Shown piece by piece: positions 347 to 8,799 of a stretch of 9,000 nucleotides of DNA. Within the stretch, counting starts at the first letter, position 1, and the number at the start of each line of letters is the position of its first letter. The stretch lies in the NCBI GenBank assembly GCA_021813195.1, contig JAKALI010000132.1, positions 1-9,000 on the forward strand, written 5' to 3'. Under the pieces are notes generated by a model. The model did not search any database. It was not told where the DNA came from and saw nothing but the letters and a program-made list of their open reading frames with translations. The position numbers and the translations under genes are program-made. Source of the DNA: Pseudomonadota bacterium. Lineage in GTDB: Bacteria > Pseudomonadota > Alphaproteobacteria > Rhizobiales > Hyphomicrobiaceae.

Positions 347-1687
347 CTACCCAGCCTCGAGATACCGTTGACGCTCCTCGGCGCTGACGGCCGGGCGGAG
401 CGCGGCATCCTCGGCTTCGCAGATGGCTGCGAAATGATCGACGAACGTGGACCCAAACAACTCTCGGGCCTTCGCGCTCGCGCGGAATCGTCGCGTAGCC
501 TCGAGGAGATCACGCGGCAGGCGCGATGCTCCGGGCGGGATCTCGTTCGGGCCGCCGCTTGTGATTGGTTCGGTGTCGAGGGTGAGGTTGCGCTCGATAC
601 CGTCGAGGCCGGCGGCGAGCACCAGGGCGAGCGTTAAATGCGGATTGCAGTCGCTACCGGGCAAGCGAAGTTCGAGCCGCGTGCGCTCGGGCGTTTCGGC
701 GGCGACGCGGACCGCGGCGGCGTAGTTGTAGGGTGCCCAACTCATCGTCTTGGGTGCCCAGCTGCCGGGAGCGAACCGGCGGTAGGCATTGACGGTATGG
801 GCCAGCATGACGAAGGCTTCGGGCGTCGTGGCGATGAGACCGGCCAGGAATGACTTCGCGGTCGGCGATAAACCCTGCGCATCGGCGGGATCGGCAAACA
901 GGTTGCGACCTGCGGCGTCTTCCAGTGACACACAAACGTGGCCGCCGATGGAGGCGAAGCCCTGTCCCGTGTGGGCCATGAAGGACGCAGTCAAATGGCG
1001 CTGGCGGCAGAACGCCTTCGTGAACATGCGGAAAAAGGCGGCGTCATCGGCTGCGCGCAGGGCCGGATTAGCACGCAGTGTCGCTTCAAAGCACCCCGGC
1101 CCCAATTCGACGCACAGCGAGTAGAGATCCACATCGCCGGCCCTAAGAACTGCCTCGAGGTCGTTCAAGAAGGGTGCGCAGGTGGCCGCGGTCTGGCCCG
1201 ACCAGCAGCGATTATCGGCAGCAAAAAGGGCGAGATTGGAGAAATTTTTTACGCGCAGGCTGTCGGCGGTCTCATTCAACACGATGAACTCGAATTCGAA
1301 GGCGGCTTTGGCCGCGACGCCGCGGGTGCTCAGCGCTGCAATCGTGTGGCGGAGAACCTGGCGCGGCATGATGCTGGTCTGCGGGCCCGAGAAGTCGGCG
1401 ACGACGGCTGCGGCGGAGGGCTCAAACGGATAGCGGCGCACGGATGCGGGATCGATCGCGATGGGTCCGCTGCGGTAGGGGCCGGCCATGAGAATGTTGT
1501 CTGATGCATCCCACTTGGGCAGCACATTACCGAACACCGCGCTGTCGCATGTTGCCAGAAAATCCGGGCGGCTCAAACGGCGCTCACGAAATAGGCTGGC
1601 GTAATCGAATAGGCCGACGTGGACCACCTCGGCGCCGATGCGGTCGAGAGCATATTCCAAGTCTTCGCGCACCGAATTCCCTGGCAT
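347..1687 (-). CDS. Glutamine synthetase family protein (PuuA/GlnT-like ATP-dependent amide ligase)
   Basis: A protein of 446 residues, the usual length for the family. Members ligate ammonia or an amine to the gamma-carboxyl of glutamate using ATP. The N-terminal beta-grasp region is about 10-105 and the catalytic domain about 110-440. Visible catalytic-domain motifs are FEFEF (metal ligands E131, E133), ELGPGCFE (E194, E201), GGHVCVSL (H250), NAYRRFAPGSWAP (R304), AVRV (R327) and LELRLPGSDCNPHLTLA (E339, R341). There is no GlnA-type adenylylation site, so the substrate may be a polyamine, another amine or an unusual acceptor rather than ammonia. Two positions deviate: the canonical NR arginine is Tyr322 and the flap glutamate is Trp310. 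The ATG at 1687 is chosen because GGGGAG lies a few bases upstream. The frame stays open to 1843, but that extension is Arg-rich and unlike the family. The gene is transcribed away from the TIR gene. Confidence 0.92.
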   Translation of the reverse strand: MPGNSVREDLEYALDRIGAEVVHVGLFDYASLFRERRLSRPDFLATCDSAVFGNVLPKWDASDNILMAGPYRSGPIAIDPASVRRYPFEPSAAAVVADFSGPQTSIMPRQVLRHTIAALSTRGVAAKAAFEFEFIVLNETADSLRVKNFSNLALFAADNRCWSGQTAATCAPFLNDLEAVLRAGDVDLYSLCVELGPGCFEATLRANPALRAADDAAFFRMFTKAFCRQRHLTASFMAHTGQGFASIGGHVCVSLEDAAGRNLFADPADAQGLSPTAKSFLAGLIATTPEAFVMLAHTVNAYRRFAPGSWAPKTMSWAPYNYAAAVRVAAETPERTRLELRLPGSDCNPHLTLALVLAAGLDGIERNLTLDTEPITSGGPNEIPPGASRLPRDLLEATRRFRASAKARELFGSTFVDHFAAICEAEDAALRPAVSAEERQRYLEAG

Positions 1688-1833
1688 CTTCGATCTCCCC
1701 TGACGTCGTGCCCACAGCCGTTCCAGCGGGTGTAGTCGAGGACGGCGGACGACGAAAGTCGTGTCCTCGAACCGGTCGCCTCGAAGGCCGGGCGAGGTTG
1801 AGCGGCGCGCCCGCCGCGCGGCGACGTCCGTCG

Positions 1834-1890
1834 TTGACCGCATGCCGGATTAGCCCTACCGTTGGCGCACTGCATTTTTTGTTTTTTATG
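1834..1890 (+). promoter_or_regulatory. Candidate promoter region of the TIR-WD40 gene, with T-rich tract
   Basis: This lies in the 219-base divergent gap (1688-1906) between the glutamine-synthetase-family gene and the TIR gene. Two overlapping candidates can be read on the plus strand. One is TTGACC (1834-1839), 17 bases, then TACCGT (1857-1862). The other is TTGGCG (1862-1867), 16 bases, then TTTTAT (1884-1889). The second uses a conspicuous tract of two T6 runs separated by one G (1875-1887), the only AT-rich patch in this gap. It would give a leader of only about ten bases. No operator dyad was recognised. The T tract could instead act as a bendable or promoter-opening element. Confidence 0.3.
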
Positions 1891-1906: not shown

Positions 1907-4900
1907 ATGTTCAGCGTTTCGCCATCTCGCGGGTCGACCACTGAGCCGTCGCCCGCGCCCGCCGCCGAAGACCGCCTCGGGGTCTTTATCTCTTATTCCC
2001 GCCGCGATTGCCTCGACTTCGCGCCACAGCTCGCCAAGGCCCTCGAGCTACTCGGCCATCGCGCCATTCTCGACCTGCAGGGCATCTCCGGGGCGGAAGC
2101 ATGGCAGCCGCGCCTGCGCGAGATGATCTTGGAAGCCGATACGGTGGTGTTCGTCATGTCGCCCGAGAGCGCGCGATCGGAGATATGCGCCTGGGAGGTG
2201 GAGGAGGCCTACAAGCTCGGCAAGCGCATCATCCCGCTGATCGCCCTGCCGCTCGGCGAGCAAAAGCCGCCCGAACGCCTGCGCCAGCTCCACTACATTC
2301 ATTTCTACAGCGAGCCCACGGTTCCCGGGTCTGGTTTCGGGCAGGGACTCGCGAAACTCGATGCGGCCCTGAAAGCGGACCTGGGCTGGCTGCGCCAGCA
2401 TCGCGACGTGCTGCTGCGCGCGGAAGCCTGGGAGGCAAAGGGCCGCGACCCCGATCGCCTGTTGCGCGGCAGCGCGCTCCTGGAGGCGGAGCGCTGGGCG
2501 GCCTCCCGTCCCATCACCGCCCCCGACCTGACGGACCTGCAGCGCGGCTATCTCGCCGCCTCGCGCGCGGGGGAAGACGCAGACGCCGCCGCACGCGAGC
2601 GCGAAGTCGCCGAACGTGAACGGCTCGCCCGCGAAGCCATTGCCGCGGCCGAGCGCGCGGAGGCCGCGGCGAAGAAGGCCGAGGAGGCGCAGAAGGCCCG
2701 CGAGATCGCGCAGGTTGCGGCGATCGAAGCAGCCCGAAGGGCTGCACGCTGGTCACAGGCCCTGCTAGCCGTGTCAGCGCTGGTGTTCGTTTTGATAGCA
2801 GGTTTATATATCGTATATTTGCAAGGAAATCTTGAACAGGACCTGAAGATCAAAGCGCAGAGGGCAGAGTCCGGCTTGTTGTCGAGCTATGCCTCGACAT
2901 TGACCGACGCCCGCGGCATGGGACCCGCCGGTTTAGCGACTCTTCTCGCTTTGGAAGCTCTGCCGGACAAGCAGGAAGGCATCGAACGCGCCTATGTGCC
3001 ACTCGCTCAGGCTCAGCTCCGACGCAACTTCCGCCTATTGCGGGAACATGCGGTGCTTCGAGGGCACGTCAACGTAGTCAAATTTGGCCGCTTAAATCTA
3101 CAAGGAACCCTGGCATTGACCTATTCGGACGATCGGACGGCACGACTTTGGCGTGTCTCTGACGGTCAGGAGATAGCCCGGCTTGATATTGGGAGTAACA
3201 GCGTCGAGAGCGCCGCATTCAGTCCCGACGGGACGACGCTGACGGTCGGTCAGGGAAATGGATCGGTGCGCATTTTTGATGCGGCAACAGGGAAATTGCG
3301 GGCGCACTTCAAGAAGCACTGGGGTGGCGTCATCCACGTCAGTTACGACGCCTCAGGCCAGCGCCTTGCAACGGCGTCTGTCGACAATACGGCGCGGATC
3401 TGGGACGTCCAAACTGGCAATCTTCTCAACACGCTCTCTGGCCACTTCCATTACGTTACGCGAGCGGTATTCAATGCTTCCGGCGAAAGCGTTGCGACGG
3501 CATCTTTCGATGGGACAATCCGTGTCTGGCGCCTGGCCAATGGAGCCGAGGTTCTGCGGCTGACGGGACACGAGCAACCCGTTATCGATGTTGCGTTTCA
3601 ATCTGGTGGTGAAACACTAGCGTCAGCGTCGAGAGACGGCACGGTCCGTGTTTGGAACTTGGAAAACGGACGCGAGGTTCGACGCTTCGGCGCGCTCCGC
3701 TTTGTTCTGCAGTATGTCTCGGGTAACGTCTCAGAGCCGATCCTGAGTGTTGACGGACGCTTTGCGCTGACAGCAGATTCTGGTGAGAAAGCCGAAATCT
3801 GGGATATTGACTCCCAGCGTCGTGTGTCGCACCTGGATTGGAGTGCTTGGGGCATCGGGCAGCCAATATTCAGTCCAGATGGCGCCTATGTTTTGGCACT
3901 TCTGCGGGAAGCTTCAGTAGGTGTTTGGGACGCTCGTTCCGGAGACTTTTTTGAACAGCTCGACGGACATCGCGGACGAATTGCGAGCGTGGCGACCAGT
4001 AAGTCGGGTTTAGACGTACTGACGACATCGTTCGATGGTTCGGCGCGACTGTGGCAGCTCAACGGAGAGTTTGAGCGGAAGCTCCGGCTGGAGCCTGAAA
4101 TTGAGCATGATGCCGCAAACCTGTCATGGGACGGTACGCTCGCCGTCACGGCTTCGCACGGGCGGGTGAAGCTTTGGGATACCGTCAACGGTTCCAAAGT
4201 AGCCGAGCTGCCAGTCATCCATGAGACGACCACGTCGCTGGCCGGCGATGAGGTGCCAAAATTACGAATTACGCATGTTGTCTTGAGCCGAAGCAAGGAT
4301 CGTTTGGTATTGGCGAAGTCCGATGGCACGGTCGAGCTTTGGGATGTCGCGTCGTCCCGCAAACTGAAAGAACTCCTTAAACTAGACGGCAATATCATCC
4401 AAGTGGCTTGGTCAGATGATGGCCGTAAGATCGGTGTTCTCGACTTCAACGGCGCTCCACGCGTCATCGAGACGGAGTCGGGCACGGAGGTGCAAGGCTT
4501 CCGGCATGGCGCGATGACTGAGAACGCGATCAACGCGTTCGCGTTTGATGGCTCGGGAGAGCACATCGTTACATCGGGGGAAGATTATACCGCGAGGGTC
4601 TGGCGAATTCAGTCGGGCGAGGAGCTATTTCGATTGCGCGGCCACACTGATGGTGTGCGCAGCGCCATGTTCAGTCCGGACGGCAGCACCATCGTCACAG
4701 CTTCGCGTGACGGCAGCGCTCGCATTTGGAGCATTAGCGACGGGCGTGAACTCCTCGTCTTGGACGGTGGAGCTACGCCAATGTGGCGTGCCGAGTTCAG
4801 CCACGACGGACGCTTGATCGTCACGAGTTCAGACGACGGCAACGTGAGATTGTGGGACGCCGCCAACGGTGAATTGCGTGATCTCATCAGCGCTGGCGCC

Positions 4901-6571
4901 GCAACCTCCCCCTCTGCGGCGAGGCTGCGATCGACCGACGACCAATTAGTAAGGATTTGGACAGGCGGCGAACTACGGGCGACGACAATTTTTAATGACC
5001 TTGAGGAATTGATTTCCACCGCAAAGAACCGCGTACAACGCTGCCTCGATCCCCGCGAGAGAGAATTCTATTTTCTGTCGGCAGCTTCGCCCCAGTGGTG
5101 TCAGCGGCGGAACTTGTGGCCGTACGATGTCGGCGCGCGAATTTACTCAGCCAATCTTGAGAATATGTATGGGCGGCCGCAAAAAGCCATGCGAGAGGCC
5201 GATGACATCATCGCTATGTTGTCCCAGCATAACGATATCGGATCCTGGCAACTTGGAGCAGCTTACCTTGCTCGCGGCGTCGCTCGCGAGCAGTTGAATG
5301 ACCGCGCCGGCGCGGATGCCGATTTCAAACAGGCACTGGATCTTGGCCACGATATTTCCAGGGTGTTTCTTGATAAGGCTTTCGGTCTTCTCAACGATGG
5401 TCGCAACGAAAAGGCCCTTGCTGCCTTCGCAACAGCTATATCTTGGGCAGCGCGTCGTGGTTCGCGGGAGGAATGGAAAGAGCTCGCTCATTTCGAACGC
5501 GGCAAAGCCCTTAATGGTCTGGGCAGAGAAAACGAGGCAGTTCGTGACTTCGAGCAGGTGGGGAGCAATCTTCGCGTCGAAGTCATCGGATACCATCTTT
5601 TGCAAGGTATGACGTTGGCCCAATCCCAGCCCGAGGTGGCATCAGCTGCTTTTGATCGGGCGTTGGAATGGTCGTCCGCGCAGGGAACTGATCCGGACTT
5701 GCGCGCTCGTGTGCTCATAGCGCGCGGCCTGACCCGCTTGGAAACTGGATCAAGCGTCGACGGCTTCGCTGACTTGGAATTAGCGGGTGAGACGGCCACA
5801 CCTATGGCATCGGCCTACCTTTTAGGACGAGCCAAACGCTTGGGTAGTTCAGACATCGAAGAATCTTTGCGATGGATCGAGCAGGCCTTGAACTGGGCCC
5901 GGCGCGAAGGCGGCTCAAAATTCGATGAGGCCGAGGCATTGATGGAGCGGGGTAGGCTTAGGGCTAGGCAAGGGAACCTTGCTCTAGCGTGGCAAGACTT
6001 TGAAGCTGTGAAGTCCTTAGGTGTGCCACATTCCCAATTCGACACGGCCAGGGCGGATTTGTTAGTGCGAATTGCTCTCGATGAGTTGGCACGCGGTAAA
6101 CTTGACACGGCCTTCGACAGCGTGGAAACAGCAATCCGCGCGGCACCTCATGACAGCGCAATGAAGGCTGTTCGCGGCCTGATCAATGCACGAAGAGGGT
6201 CATGTCACTGGGCAATCCGTGACCTCACGAGCTCTCTTCGATTGAGCAAATCGGATGTTGGCGTTCTTGTGCGCTATCAGCTCAGCGAGCAAACACTGCT
6301 GCTTGCGCGCGCTGAATGCCACGAGCGGCAAGGACATCCGCGTGCTGCTATCGCCGATTATCGTCGCGTAATTCGAAGCCTCGGTTCATCCCGAACCGAA
6401 GAGGCCACCGCCAAGTCGCGTCTCAAATCATTGGGAGCGGATGAGGGGCGTGAGCCGGTTGATTACGAATTTGACGAGATGGACGAAGATGTTCGCTATC
6501 TCGATGAAACAGAAGAAGACCAAACCGAAAGGGCTTCGGAAAATTTCGAGGTCGCCCCGACATCACCCTAG
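1907..6571 (+). CDS. TIR domain - coiled coil - transmembrane - WD40 (about 14 blades) - TPR-like receptor protein
   Basis: A protein of 1554 residues. Residues 22-135 form a TIR domain: GVFISYSRRD at the first strand, a W66-centred segment, VVFVMSP at the fourth strand, then SEICAW with the catalytic-position Glu97, then KRIIPLIALPL. Residues 160-220 are a linker typical of membrane WD40 proteins (AEAWEAKGRDPDRLLRG, YLAASR). Residues 222-281 are an Ala/Glu/Arg coiled coil and 285-305 one membrane helix preceded by Arg277, Arg278 and Arg281, suggesting a cytoplasmic N-terminus. Residues 384-993 hold WD40 blades, 1031-1073 a Cys/Trp motif block, about 1115-1490 TPR-like helix pairs, and 1515-1547 an acidic tail. 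TIR domains of this class often cleave NAD+ on sensing a trigger; a defence or cell-suicide role is inferred. The ATG at 1907 follows GGTGGGAG; a TTG at 1862 in frame would add 15 residues unlike a TIR N-terminus. The gene stands alone on its strand. Confidence 0.95.
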   Translation: MFSVSPSRGSTTEPSPAPAAEDRLGVFISYSRRDCLDFAPQLAKALELLGHRAILDLQGISGAEAWQPRLREMILEADTVVFVMSPESARSEICAWEVEEAYKLGKRIIPLIALPLGEQKPPERLRQLHYIHFYSEPTVPGSGFGQGLAKLDAALKADLGWLRQHRDVLLRAEAWEAKGRDPDRLLRGSALLEAERWAASRPITAPDLTDLQRGYLAASRAGEDADAAAREREVAERERLAREAIAAAERAEAAAKKAEEAQKAREIAQVAAIEAARRAARWSQALLAVSALVFVLIAGLYIVYLQGNLEQDLKIKAQRAESGLLSSYASTLTDARGMGPAGLATLLALEALPDKQEGIERAYVPLAQAQLRRNFRLLREHAVLRGHVNVVKFGRLNLQGTLALTYSDDRTARLWRVSDGQEIARLDIGSNSVESAAFSPDGTTLTVGQGNGSVRIFDAATGKLRAHFKKHWGGVIHVSYDASGQRLATASVDNTARIWDVQTGNLLNTLSGHFHYVTRAVFNASGESVATASFDGTIRVWRLANGAEVLRLTGHEQPVIDVAFQSGGETLASASRDGTVRVWNLENGREVRRFGALRFVLQYVSGNVSEPILSVDGRFALTADSGEKAEIWDIDSQRRVSHLDWSAWGIGQPIFSPDGAYVLALLREASVGVWDARSGDFFEQLDGHRGRIASVATSKSGLDVLTTSFDGSARLWQLNGEFERKLRLEPEIEHDAANLSWDGTLAVTASHGRVKLWDTVNGSKVAELPVIHETTTSLAGDEVPKLRITHVVLSRSKDRLVLAKSDGTVELWDVASSRKLKELLKLDGNIIQVAWSDDGRKIGVLDFNGAPRVIETESGTEVQGFRHGAMTENAINAFAFDGSGEHIVTSGEDYTARVWRIQSGEELFRLRGHTDGVRSAMFSPDGSTIVTASRDGSARIWSISDGRELLVLDGGATPMWRAEFSHDGRLIVTSSDDGNVRLWDAANGELRDLISAGAATSPSAARLRSTDDQLVRIWTGGELRATTIFNDLEELISTAKNRVQRCLDPREREFYFLSAASPQWCQRRNLWPYDVGARIYSANLENMYGRPQKAMREADDIIAMLSQHNDIGSWQLGAAYLARGVAREQLNDRAGADADFKQALDLGHDISRVFLDKAFGLLNDGRNEKALAAFATAISWAARRGSREEWKELAHFERGKALNGLGRENEAVRDFEQVGSNLRVEVIGYHLLQGMTLAQSQPEVASAAFDRALEWSSAQGTDPDLRARVLIARGLTRLETGSSVDGFADLELAGETATPMASAYLLGRAKRLGSSDIEESLRWIEQALNWARREGGSKFDEAEALMERGRLRARQGNLALAWQDFEAVKSLGVPHSQFDTARADLLVRIALDELARGKLDTAFDSVETAIRAAPHDSAMKAVRGLINARRGSCHWAIRDLTSSLRLSKSDVGVLVRYQLSEQTLLLARAECHERQGHPRAAIADYRRVIRSLGSSRTEEATAKSRLKSLGADEGREPVDYEFDEMDEDVRYLDETEEDQTERASENFEVAPTSP
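2759..2821 (+). other. Transmembrane segment of the TIR protein and site of an abrupt base-composition change
   Basis: Residues 285-305 (ALLAVSALVFVLIAGLYIVY and the next residue) form the only strongly hydrophobic helix in the protein. Composition switches within this segment. A hand count of 2641-2700 gives 48 G+C of 60 (80%), whereas 2821-2880 gives 31 of 60 (52%) and 4261-4320 gives 27 of 60 (45%). Codon third positions change the same way: codons 245-265 end in G or C in 20 of 21 cases, codons 299-317 in about half. The change falls near 2790-2800, inside the helix. Confidence 0.8.
3056..4885 (+). repeat. Array of about fourteen WD40 repeats (two seven-bladed propellers)
   Basis: Residues 384-993 divide into units of about 42 residues, each with the pattern SxDGxxxxTAxxDGxxRxWD followed by an xxGxxxxxL turn. 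Unit ends fall near residues 426, 468, 510, 552, 594, 643, 685, 726, 768, 823, 865, 910, 952 and 993. Blades 3-5 and 12-14 are closest to consensus (GH, then SPDG, then VRIWD/VRVW). Blades 2, 6, 9 and 11 are degenerate, and blade 10 carries an insertion of about 13 residues. A half-motif (DQLVRIWTGGEL, 1012-1023) follows. Fourteen blades fit two closed seven-bladed propellers, a platform for protein binding. There is no cysteine anywhere in this region. The DNA copies have diverged, so these are not recent tandem duplications. Confidence 0.88.
5249..6376 (+). repeat. TPR-like helical repeat array in the C-terminal third of the TIR protein
   Basis: Residues about 1115-1490 contain a run of helix pairs with TPR spacing and small/aromatic signature positions. 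Examples are AAYLARGVAREQLNDRAGA, AHFERGKALNGLGRENEAV, EAEALMERGRLRARQGNLA and LLLARAECHERQGHPRAA. Some seven or eight units can be made out; several lack the full consensus (SEL1- or TPR-like). Such superhelices bind peptides or partner proteins. The array is fused directly behind the propellers in the same reading frame, with no frameshift or stop. Unit borders are approximate because they were drawn by eye. Confidence 0.75.
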
Positions 6572-6660: not shown

Positions 6661-7554
6661 TCATCCCGCCTTGTCGCGGGCGCGGATCTCGTTCCAGAGC
6701 GCGTCCATGTCGTCGAGCGCGGCCTCCTCGGGGCGCAATCCCTGCTCGGCCAGGCGCGCTTCGACGTAGGCAAAGCGGCGGCTGAATTTGGCGTTCGCGG
6801 CGCGCAACGCCGCCTCCGGATCGATCTTCAGGTGTCGCGCGACGTTGGCGAGGACGAACAGCGCGTCGCCCAATTCCTCCATGATGCGGGCGTGTGCGGC
6901 GTCGGTGATCGGTGCCTGCGGATTGACGCGCGGATCGGCCGGCACGGCGACCTCTTCCAACTCCGCGATCTCCTCTTTGAGCTTGTCGAAGACAGGCGAC
7001 AGGTTCGGCCAGTCGAAGCCGACGCGCGCGGCCTTGTCCTGGAGTTTGACGGCCCGCGTGAGGGCAGGCAGGGCGGCGGGTATGTCGGCCAGAAGTGAGG
7101 CGGGCGCGCCGTCGCCGGCTTTGCCTTTCGCGTTTTTTTCCTCGGCCTTGATGCGGGCCCAGAAGTCGGGCGCGGCGCCGGCCGCGCGCTCTTCGCGCGA
7201 ACCGAAGACATGCGGGTGGCGGCGCACCATCTTGCGCACGATCGCATCGGCCACGTCGGGAAAGGCGAAGGCGCCGGCCTCCTCGGCCATGCGCGCGTGA
7301 TAGACGACCTGGAGGAGCAAGTCGCCGAGTTCGTCTTTCAAGTCGGCCATGTCGCCGCGCGCGATGGCGTCCGCCACCTCGTAGGCCTCCTCGATGGTAT
7401 AGGGCGCGATGGTCGCGAAGGTCTGTTTGAGGTCCCACGGGCAGCCGGTTTCGGGCGTGCGCAGAGCGGCCATTACGGCGAGCAAGCGCTTGAGACCCTG
7501 AACGTGCTCGGGCGTAATTTCGGGAAGCTCGGGAAGGTCGGGGCCGTCGGACAT
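6661..7554 (-). CDS. mazG: MazG, nucleoside triphosphate pyrophosphohydrolase
   Basis: A protein of 297 residues that hydrolyses (d)NTPs to NMP and pyrophosphate in the cytosol, sanitising the nucleotide pool; in E. coli it also tempers (p)ppGpp signalling. The N-terminal MazG domain carries GCPWDLKQT (37-45), the metal-binding EEAYE (55-59) and DELGDLLLQ (74-82), then RRHPHVFG (111-118). The C-terminal domain repeats the pattern with KLKEEIAELEE (191-201) and EELGDALFVLANVARH (226-241), so both Mg2+-binding sets are intact. It is somewhat longer than the E. coli protein, owing to a low-complexity linker around 120-160. The ATG at 7554 precedes the family-like N-terminus; the frame continues upstream, but with unrelated Arg/Pro-rich sequence. 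The SD is weak (GAGC). It lies 47 bases downstream of the DUF2306-type gene on the same strand, probably in one transcript, and converges with the TIR gene across an 89-base gap. Confidence 0.96.
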   Translation of the reverse strand: MSDGPDLPELPEITPEHVQGLKRLLAVMAALRTPETGCPWDLKQTFATIAPYTIEEAYEVADAIARGDMADLKDELGDLLLQVVYHARMAEEAGAFAFPDVADAIVRKMVRRHPHVFGSREERAAGAAPDFWARIKAEEKNAKGKAGDGAPASLLADIPAALPALTRAVKLQDKAARVGFDWPNLSPVFDKLKEEIAELEEVAVPADPRVNPQAPITDAAHARIMEELGDALFVLANVARHLKIDPEAALRAANAKFSRRFAYVEARLAEQGLRPEEAALDDMDALWNEIRARDKAG

Positions 7555-7601
7555 GGGGGTGCTGCTCGGCTCGCGGCGGTGGATGGGACGCCGCGCGAGG
7601 C

Positions 7602-8291
7602 TTACGCGCTCGCCGGTTGCGCTGCAACCGTGCTCGCGCGTGCTCGCGGGGGTCGAAACGCCCAGGCTGTCAAGCGGCGCCGGTGCGCAATCACGAGGGT
7701 GAGGGGCACGATCCACGCAACCCAAGATGCGAGGGCGTACGTGACCTCAAATGGCCAGCCGAATGCGATCGCCGAACCCGTGATGAGGCGAAACCACACC
7801 GCACCCGTCGTCACGGCCGTCATGGCGAGCATGAGGTGGGCATGTCGCGCGCGCTCGCCGTTACGGATGGCGGCGATGGCGGCGGCGAACAGCCCGAGCC
7901 AGACCAGGCCTTGGACAAAGAACCCGGCACGGGCGGCCACCGAGGAGTGGCTGATTATGGCGACAGGAAACGCCGAAAGCCCTCCCAGCACCACGAAAGC
8001 GCCCAACAGCCATCCGATCCTGCGGTGTAGCCGGGGACGATGCCGCAAGCCGATCACGGCCGGCAGCAGCAGGAGGGCGAGTGCGGAGGCCACCATGTGC
8101 ACGCGGAAGACGGCCGGCAGACGCTGGTCCAAAACCCACATCTCGAAAGGAAGTGCGAGGATGCCGAACCCCGATGCCAGCGCGACGAGCGCAACGATTG
8201 CCGACAAACTGCACGCCAATGTCAGAGCGCCCCGTGCGAGCAGTGTGCGCGGCGCAAAGCCAGGTGCGGAGGGTGCGGCAAGCCTCGTCAT
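7602..8291 (-). CDS. DUF2306-type six-helix integral membrane protein
   Basis: A protein of 229 residues with six hydrophobic helices at about 22-46, 64-82, 91-114, 122-142, 152-175 and 183-203. Family-like marks are the Asp-Arg before helix 2 (VLDQRLPAVFRVHM), the Arg/His loop HRPRLHRRIGW (84-94), RARHAHLM before helix 5 and WFRL at its end, matching the DUF2306 predicted membrane proteins, whose function is unknown. The histidines 65, 89, 150 and 152 recur at membrane borders. The start is uncertain: Met at 8291 gives a short basic N-terminus before helix 1; Met at 8300, 8366 or 8390 are in frame but reach further into the gene on the other strand. None has a good SD, although GGTGGGG precedes 8366. 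It is the first gene of a likely pair with mazG. Confidence 0.83.
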   Translation of the reverse strand: MTRLAAPSAPGFAPRTLLARGALTLACSLSAIVALVALASGFGILALPFEMWVLDQRLPAVFRVHMVASALALLLLPAVIGLRHRPRLHRRIGWLLGAFVVLGGLSAFPVAIISHSSVAARAGFFVQGLVWLGLFAAAIAAIRNGERARHAHLMLAMTAVTTGAVWFRLITGSAIAFGWPFEVTYALASWVAWIVPLTLVIAHRRRLTAWAFRPPRARASTVAAQPASA

Positions 8292-8799
8292 GGGCGCCAT
8301 GATCGCGCTGCTGTGTGGCGCGACTGCGGCGCCCACGCTCGCCGGTGAACGCGACGCCGAGATCATCGCCCCACCCACACCGCCCAACATCACAGGCCGC
8401 TGGAGCGGTACGCCCTATGCGCTGCGCCATGATCCTGAGCGCTGCGGCACGGGAAGCTGCGAGGTCGTGCTCGATATCGTGCCATGCGGGACCGCCTGGT
8501 GCGGGATCGAAGTGAAAAAGGGTTCTGAGTGCGGCGGGCAGCCTTTGCAGCTGACGGCCCATGGTGAACCTCATCACTTCGGCGCGTTCAAAGGGCGGTG
8601 GTCACTCGCCGCCGGAACGCAGGAGTACGTTGTGGAAGCGAACTACCGCCCGCGCCAGAATGGCGAGCCGGAACGCTTATACTTCTTGGGCGACACGGGA
8701 CCGGAGCTGATGATCTTCCGCCGCTCCTTCCCGTTCCAGGCCACACTCGAACGGGTGGCGGAGGCGACGTGCAGGGCGACTGAGAAACCGCTGAGCTGA
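8290..8799 (+). CDS. Small exported protein of unknown function with six cysteines in the mature part
   Basis: A protein of 169 residues from the ATG at 8290. The N-terminus MGAMIALLCGATAAPTLAGE reads as a signal peptide, with likely cleavage after TLA (residue 18). The mature part has Cys52, 57, 66, 71, 81 and 161, an even number suited to three disulfides in the periplasm. It begins with ITGRWSGTPYALRHD and contains VPCGTAWCGIEV, CGGQPLQL and FKGRWSL. The GxW...CG..WCG pattern resembles small periplasmic beta-rich proteins of the DUF2147 kind, but I do not recognise the family. An in-frame GTG at 8245 would add a basic n-region (R, K) before the hydrophobic stretch and may be the true start. 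A GGAGGG at 8268-8273 is too far from 8290 to be a normal SD. The frame stays open far upstream (to 7210), but that part is antisense to mazG and the DUF2306 gene. Confidence 0.78.
   Translation: MGAMIALLCGATAAPTLAGERDAEIIAPPTPPNITGRWSGTPYALRHDPERCGTGSCEVVLDIVPCGTAWCGIEVKKGSECGGQPLQLTAHGEPHHFGAFKGRWSLAAGTQEYVVEANYRPRQNGEPERLYFLGDTGPELMIFRRSFPFQATLERVAEATCRATEKPLS

Follow-up and report, generated by a model that had tools for sequence, protein, structure and literature searches.

The locus and its reading frame

The window (the whole stretch of 9 kb of DNA that was analysed) carries on its forward strand a frame of 1554 amino acids, which was confirmed as real. Two start codons are available, TTG at 1862 and ATG at 1907, the latter being more plausible since a GGGAG sequence lies just upstream. 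The features assigned to this gene and its neighbours were as follows.

347..1843, reverse strand: neighbouring gene outside the receptor, glutamine-synthetase-like (Pfam Gln-synt_C, 2.7e-72)
1907..6571, forward strand: whole gene, predicted TIR transmembrane receptor, 1554 aa (open frame; GGGAG upstream of ATG 1907)
1982..2314, forward strand: TIR domain, residues 26-136 (Pfam TIR_2, 4.3e-19, above the cut-off; model; Foldseek)
2195..2197, forward strand: Glu97, catalytic position (aligned to the SARM1 Glu; conserved in the family)
2369..2572, forward strand: helical neck, residues 155-222 (conserved W/R/H pattern; resembles the nSTAND1 end in TIR-nSTAND1-WD40 cousins)
2573..2758, forward strand: long helix, putative coiled coil, residues 223-284 (lies within a continuous helix of the model)
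2759..2815, forward strand: predicted transmembrane helix, residues 285-303 (mean hydropathy 2.75)
2816..3031, forward strand: far-side linker with an LLALEALPD motif (conserved in many alignment rows; matched in nSTAND1 cousins)
3044..4063, forward strand: first WD40 propeller region, approximate boundary (Pfam, model, Foldseek)
4112..4891, forward strand: second WD40 propeller region, approximate boundary (Pfam, model, Foldseek)
5042..5101, forward strand: cysteine staple C1046 to C1065, cap behind the propellers (pattern and profile)
5129..6430, forward strand: TPR-type helical repeats (Pfam TPR_2, TPR_8 and TPR_12; helices in the model)
6203..6319, forward strand: second cysteine pair, C1433 and C1471 (both align with cysteines of the nearest relative, P0002)
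6661..7725, reverse strand: neighbouring gene, MazG nucleotide pyrophosphohydrolase, housekeeping (NCBIfam NF007113, above the cut-off)

The order of domains is secure: the TIR is followed by a helical neck, a long helix, the single membrane helix, twin WD40 propellers of approximately 14 blades in total, and TPRs. An earlier note on this DNA had proposed that a single frame joins a TIR domain, a membrane helix, about 14 WD40 blades, and TPRs, and the frame, Pfam matches, hydropathy, and structure models agreed on this point. The GC content at third codon positions (GC3) of the gene was 0.635 versus 0.749-0.837 in its neighbours. Within the gene, the first 200 codons had a GC3 of 0.83 and later ones 0.53-0.68, so that the TIR end differs in composition from the sensor end; both contrasts are consistent with fusion or exchange.

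TIR domain, neck, and membrane segment

A first AlphaFold model covered residues 19-400, in which pLDDT was mostly 94-97 for the TIR domain and mostly 94-98 across the TIR and neck blocks, the lowest value there being 82. Foldseek searches with this model returned the TIR domains of SPARTA, SARM1, and Toll-like receptors (TLRs), and profile comparison ranked SARM1 as the best solved relative (7e-8), followed by TLR15, TLR1, and TLR6. Glu97, the first Glu of the CAWEVEEA motif, aligned with the Glu of SARM1 KEIVTA in both single-sequence and profile comparisons. We take this SARM1 residue to be the catalytic one, which agrees with the title of an E642A SARM1 entry among the Foldseek matches. 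All 100 members of one alignment, the window protein included, had Glu at this position, and the Glu97 at the catalytic position that the earlier note had read from the letters is thus supported. Because the active site is conserved, the TIR domain of the window protein is likely to cleave NAD+. Cys94 (2186-2188), located three residues before Glu97, was a Cys in 95 of 100 family TIR domains and might serve as a redox control point.

Residues from approximately 210 to 298 formed a single long helix in the same model, less surely near the membrane, and this helix is probably a coiled coil running into the membrane. Segment 285-303 was the sole segment of the protein above our hydropathy limit of 1.6; the model was uncertain around it (pLDDT 39-72). 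By hydropathy, therefore, a single membrane helix between sensor and TIR, which we sought as a feature of the Toll-like class, is present. As the earlier note had stated, no NTPase was detected: residues 141-385 matched no P-loop family in Pfam even at an E-value of 10, and a Walker A motif was absent from the whole protein.

Propellers, repeats, and the cysteine staple

The second structure model (residues 376-1554; mean pLDDT 74.8) contained 55 strands up to residue 995 by manual count, corresponding to approximately 14 blades, followed by paired helices. Foldseek matched it to solved WD40 propellers, including that of Apaf-1 (3sfz).

Cysteine was absent from the propellers of the window protein, and four cysteines lay behind them, two forming the staple and two aligning with P0002. 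The staple takes the form RCL-x16-WC or near it behind the propellers; it was detected by pattern in 29 of 47 WD40-type members, and its profile matched 15 of 397 genomes of the order. The 28 distinct staple-bearing frames, many of them truncated at the start, included TIR-helix-WD40 and TIR-nSTAND1-WD40 proteins (L098, L109, and L111), as well as nSTAND1-WD40 (L063 and L108), guanylate cyclase-nSTAND1-WD40 (L100), and caspase-WD40 (L107, start missing) proteins. Among these same frames, with many starts missing, we noticed none with a signal peptide only. In L100 (3453-7796; guanylate cyclase-nSTAND1-helix-WD40 with the same staple), the cyclase replaces the TIR domain. L063 (5842-10326; nSTAND1-helix-WD40 with staple) begins with 250 residues that had no Pfam match at 0.001; a DUF4062 label for this N-terminus was dropped since there was no such match.

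A family with exchangeable far sides

A search with residues 1-385 of the window protein yielded 67 proteins including its own, and when a short sister's first 275 residues served as the query, 503 were found, 120 of them being listed. The closest named relative came from a Hyphomicrobium assembly, with 54% identity over the N-terminal part. The window protein is thus not an orphan, and judging from their domain matches its relatives carry exchangeable parts on the far side of the helix. All members share the TIR domain and most also share the neck and helix, with 41 of 223 examined having no segment over the limit. The far-side domains comprised WD40, Sel1, TPR, CHAT, trypsin, PDZ, M23, OmpA, FGE, subtilase, caspase, SH3_3, M15_3, and DUF1353.

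Behind a clear helix we found Peptidase_M15_3 (L059, P0069, P0071, and P0072), M23 (P0037), OmpA (P0059, P0071, and P0072), SH3_3 (L018), PDZ (L008), FGE (L001 and L015), trypsin (P0047 and P0051), CHAT (P0039), and caspase (L042 and L058). M15 and OmpA were combined in P0071 and P0072, and the C-terminal end of P0070 was an Omp85-like tail. A selection of 72 among 187 members, which excluded WD40 and most caspase types, contained M15_3 in four and OmpA in two. A subtilase member (L009; hydropathy 1.58) and a further caspase member (L041; 1.26) were below the limit and were taken off the clear-helix list. We sorted far sides into 12 kinds and assigned these to 99 of the 100 members on a quickly built tree, along which the kind changed at least 22 times; these labels were coarse and partly assigned by eye, with WD40 as the default and some loci left out.

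Membrane topology

To place the two ends of these proteins, a segment was defined by hydropathy over 1.6, and Lys and Arg residues were compared on either side of it. P0007, P0062, and four loci with other layouts were left out of these counts, as were, in the enlarged set, loci cut by a contig end. In the first set, 97 of 109 proteins had a segment, and the TIR side had more Lys/Arg in 83, fewer in one (P0061), and the same number in 13. In the enlarged set, from which a duplicate had been removed, 182 of 223 had a segment (higher in 161, lower in one, tied in 20); since the compared N-termini are homologous, these counts are not independent trials. When proteins were grouped by similarity of their far sides into 59 groups and each group was represented by one drawn protein, the averages were 53.4 higher, 0.0 lower, and 5.6 tied. 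The arrangement expected of a Toll-like class, with the sensor outside and TIR inside, thus had strong family counts, yet the window protein itself was tied at three Lys/Arg on each side, its net charge (+2 versus 0) being the sole measure that favours TIR inside.

The periplasm is where murein peptidases, OmpA, and bacterial SH3 domains act. In every case examined for position, these domains lay behind the helix.

Of the 182 proteins, 99 had an even number of cysteines behind the helix, 29 an odd number, and 54 none, whereas in front of it the number was even in 58, odd in 122, and zero in two. Evenness is therefore not a general habit of these proteins, because the TIR side is mostly odd. 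Counted by group, there were 26.8 even versus 11.0 odd behind the helix (p 0.014) and 22.9 versus 36.0 in front, which is a modest effect, and the nearest relative, P0002, has an odd count of five. Cysteine density is no argument for topology: it was 0.47% on the far side and 0.87% on the TIR side in the first 58 proteins, and 0.74% and 0.53%, respectively, in the later 90.

With a single helix and a positive TIR side, the propellers and TPRs would therefore lie beyond the membrane, and the sensor likely reads the periplasm. We regard this layout, with TIR inside and the propellers and TPRs outside in the periplasm, as probable. The receptor-like arrangement of domains and helix in the earlier note still stands; the periplasmic position of the far side, to which family charge and the envelope domains point, had not been seen there. 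WD40, TPR, CHAT, and caspase domains are generally regarded as cytosolic. Among the later 90 proteins, 30 had no clear segment, and 23 of these carried a caspase domain; proteins of the caspase branch may hence stay on one side of the membrane, which is the weak point of the layout.

Relationship to TIR-nSTAND1-WD40 proteins

Close cousins of the window protein hold a STAND NTPase between the TIR domain and the neck. Three of these TIR-nSTAND1-WD40 proteins carry the staple, with a clear helix in L111 and L109 and none over the limit in L098. In L111, the neck profile matched residues 520-598 at 1.2e-6, overlapping the end of nSTAND1 at 551, and the helix-linker part matched at 3.6e-11. Because of this overlap, the neck of the window protein resembles the tail of an nSTAND1 unit. 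Weak neck matches were obtained in L098 (0.29), L063 (0.12), and L108 (0.027). On the simplest reading of these alignments, the ancestor of the window protein was probably a TIR-nSTAND1-WD40 protein that lost its NTPase.

Distribution and genomic context

Three neighbours were scanned in the 9-kb window, the glutamine-synthetase-like gene, MazG, and a DUF2306 protein, and all three lie on the strand opposite to the receptor gene, so that no convincing same-strand partner was found there, as the earlier note had reported. Neither ThsA nor a short Argonaute domain occurred among them. The glutamine-synthetase-like protein matched four NCBIfam models and reached the cut-off of none.

The TIR module was found in 14 of 397 genomes of the order, the starting genome included, with up to five copies per genome, versus MazG in 364 of 397. 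The gene is hence patchy, and not the conserved single-copy core gene that the earlier note had set against its own proposal. Wider samples of the phylum and class gave matches in 5 of 397 and 3 of 376 genomes, the starting genome being counted in each. We compared 11 related MazG loci of 8.8-18 kb each, six of which kept the right-hand order of the window (the C-terminal part of the 7210-8799 frame, DUF2306, and MazG), and the TIR module and the glutamine-synthetase-like gene were absent from all 11 at 1e-8. From this comparison, the receptor gene looks like an accessory insertion, and the glutamine-synthetase-like gene perhaps belongs to the same inserted stretch.

A PADLOC search at 1e-10 of 119 of 145 neighbouring frames (16 of 19 loci, two partial), shadow frames included, matched 127 families, the best 25 of which were all DNA-methylase models matched by two proteins. 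The control, 119 of 144 frames (10 of 12 loci, three partial) from eight genomes of the same collection, matched six families. One scan of viral contigs gave 45 pattern matches and zero relatives. Plasmid searches returned 328 matching records, mostly via WD40 repeats and none covering 80% of the query; the best-ranked match was a Tolypothrix TIR protein with 52% cover. Defence or cell suicide, as proposed in the earlier note, is a candidate role.

Comparison with known systems

The window protein shares with animal TLRs a single membrane helix, a repeat-built sensor predicted outside, and a TIR domain predicted inside. In contrast to TLRs, the chain is reversed, with TIR at the N-terminus, and the catalytic Glu is kept; an LRR ectodomain N-terminal to the helix is absent, its place being taken by WD40 and TPR repeats C-terminal to the helix, and no MyD88-type partner was seen in the window. 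With SARM1, the protein shares a TIR domain with the aligned catalytic Glu and the union of effector and regulator in one chain; SARM1 has ARM and SAM domains, and neither propellers nor a membrane helix of this type. The TIR-nSTAND1-WD40 proteins share the TIR domain, far-side linker, WD40 repeats, and staple, together with the neck in L111 and more weakly in L098, and differ in the nSTAND1 NTPase. The STAND NTPase domain that marks STAND/Avs-type systems was likewise not found in the window protein. Twin propellers are shared with APAF-1 and TEP1-like STAND-WD40 proteins, which are NTPase machines without a membrane helix.

Thoeris ThsB/ThcB4 is a bacterial TIR similar to the N-terminal domain of the window protein, at 34.7 bits versus a curated cut-off of 220. 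The EACC1 system shares a membrane helix, exchangeable domains, and caspase parts, but consists of two genes, EACC1 and a caspase- or cyclase-led protein, as opposed to one chain. ThsB makes a diffusible signal (PMC11204291), TEP1 is an NADase with WD40 repeats (PMC13174449), and caspase homologs occur behind a helix, perhaps a signal peptide (PMC3501461). The passages of PMC7075850 consulted describe diverse architectures in bacterial TIR groups and TLRs as single-span receptors, and name no bacterial counterpart of TLRs. The nearest precedent found for outside sensing was PMC10907252, in which sensors located in the periplasm and in the cytosol are predicted for certain STAND and ternary systems. 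In the open-access literature, we found no paper describing a receptor of the TIR-helix-WD40 type whose sensor lies outside.

Proposed function and alternatives

Taking these data together, we lean slightly toward a single-pass inner-membrane receptor, in which a cytosolic NAD+-cleaving TIR domain is fired by a periplasmic propeller-TPR sensor of envelope damage or of an intruder. A periplasmic or peptidoglycan-linked ligand would cluster the receptors, and the coiled coil and neck would relay this clustering through the membrane helix. Brought together in this way, the TIR domains would form complete active sites and hydrolyse or cyclise NAD+, and the cell would stop growing or die. Since TIR-nSTAND1-WD40 receptors are the likely ancestors of the neck and helix, clustering would replace the ATP-driven step of these cousins.

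Such a protein might instead be a housekeeping or developmental envelope sensor that reports the state of the peptidoglycan or envelope through an ADP-ribose-type signal without killing. The peptidoglycan-linked far-side domains of sister proteins suit this alternative, as does a neighbourhood that is not clearly a defence island; we nevertheless consider it unlikely, as sparse occurrence, up to five copies in one genome, and low GC3 fit an exchanged accessory gene. It is more doubtful still that the membrane-crossing layout holds and the TIR domain serves as a platform on which other TIR or signalling proteins dock, leaving NAD+ uncleaved: animal TLR TIR domains work in this way, and they are among the nearest solved relatives, but the invariant Glu97 position, the closer profile match to the NADase SARM1, and the absence of a convincing same-strand partner in the window argue against it. 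Least credible is a sensor located in the cytosol at the membrane, on the same side as the TIR domain and with the hydrophobic segment merely anchoring or buried, an arrangement for which the earlier note leaves room, since one crossing helix cannot leave both ends on the same side, and the usual cytosolic location of WD40 and TPR domains, the 41 of 223 members with no clear segment, and the caspase and CHAT domains behind the segment in some members are opposed by the charge bias of 161 to one, the OmpA, M15, M23, and SH3 domains behind the helix, and the mostly even cysteine counts.

Returning to a periplasmic sensor that fires a cytosolic TIR domain, its extension to the whole family is more tentative, with chances that we put a little under even. 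These proteins would be bacterial Toll-like receptors with a cytosolic NAD+-cleaving TIR domain and a swappable ectodomain watching the cell wall and envelope from the periplasm, and would have evolved from TIR-nSTAND1 receptors whose NTPase was deleted. The ectodomains would range from twin WD40 propellers with a disulfide cap to TPR, Sel1, murein-peptidase, OmpA, SH3, and FGE-type domains. To our knowledge, known bacterial TIR defence proteins sense in the cytosol or await a diffusible signal. A TIR receptor with a periplasmic sensor would provide a bacterial counterpart of the Toll-like receptor layout. It would account for a response that precedes the arrival of phage DNA or damage in the cytosol, and would point to more than one origin of membrane TIR receptors. 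A further prediction of this layout is that WD40 propellers, stabilised by disulfides, occur outside the cytoplasm, which would be uncommon. The exchanged murein-peptidase, OmpA, and SH3 ectodomains offer a natural series of variants in which to look for the trigger.

Further far-side variants

Residues 388-493 of P0151, behind TIR and helix, gave a lysozyme-like far-side match (pesticin family) just below the cut-off. The C-terminal parts of P0081, P0098, and P0103 contain an unnamed two-cysteine far-side domain that was spotted by eye and that had no match in Pfam scans of P0081 and P0098. A Nodosilinea protein (L017, 9212-12835, the same gene as L069, 7604-11227) has three successive TIR-module matches ahead of one hydrophobic segment and WD40-like repeats.
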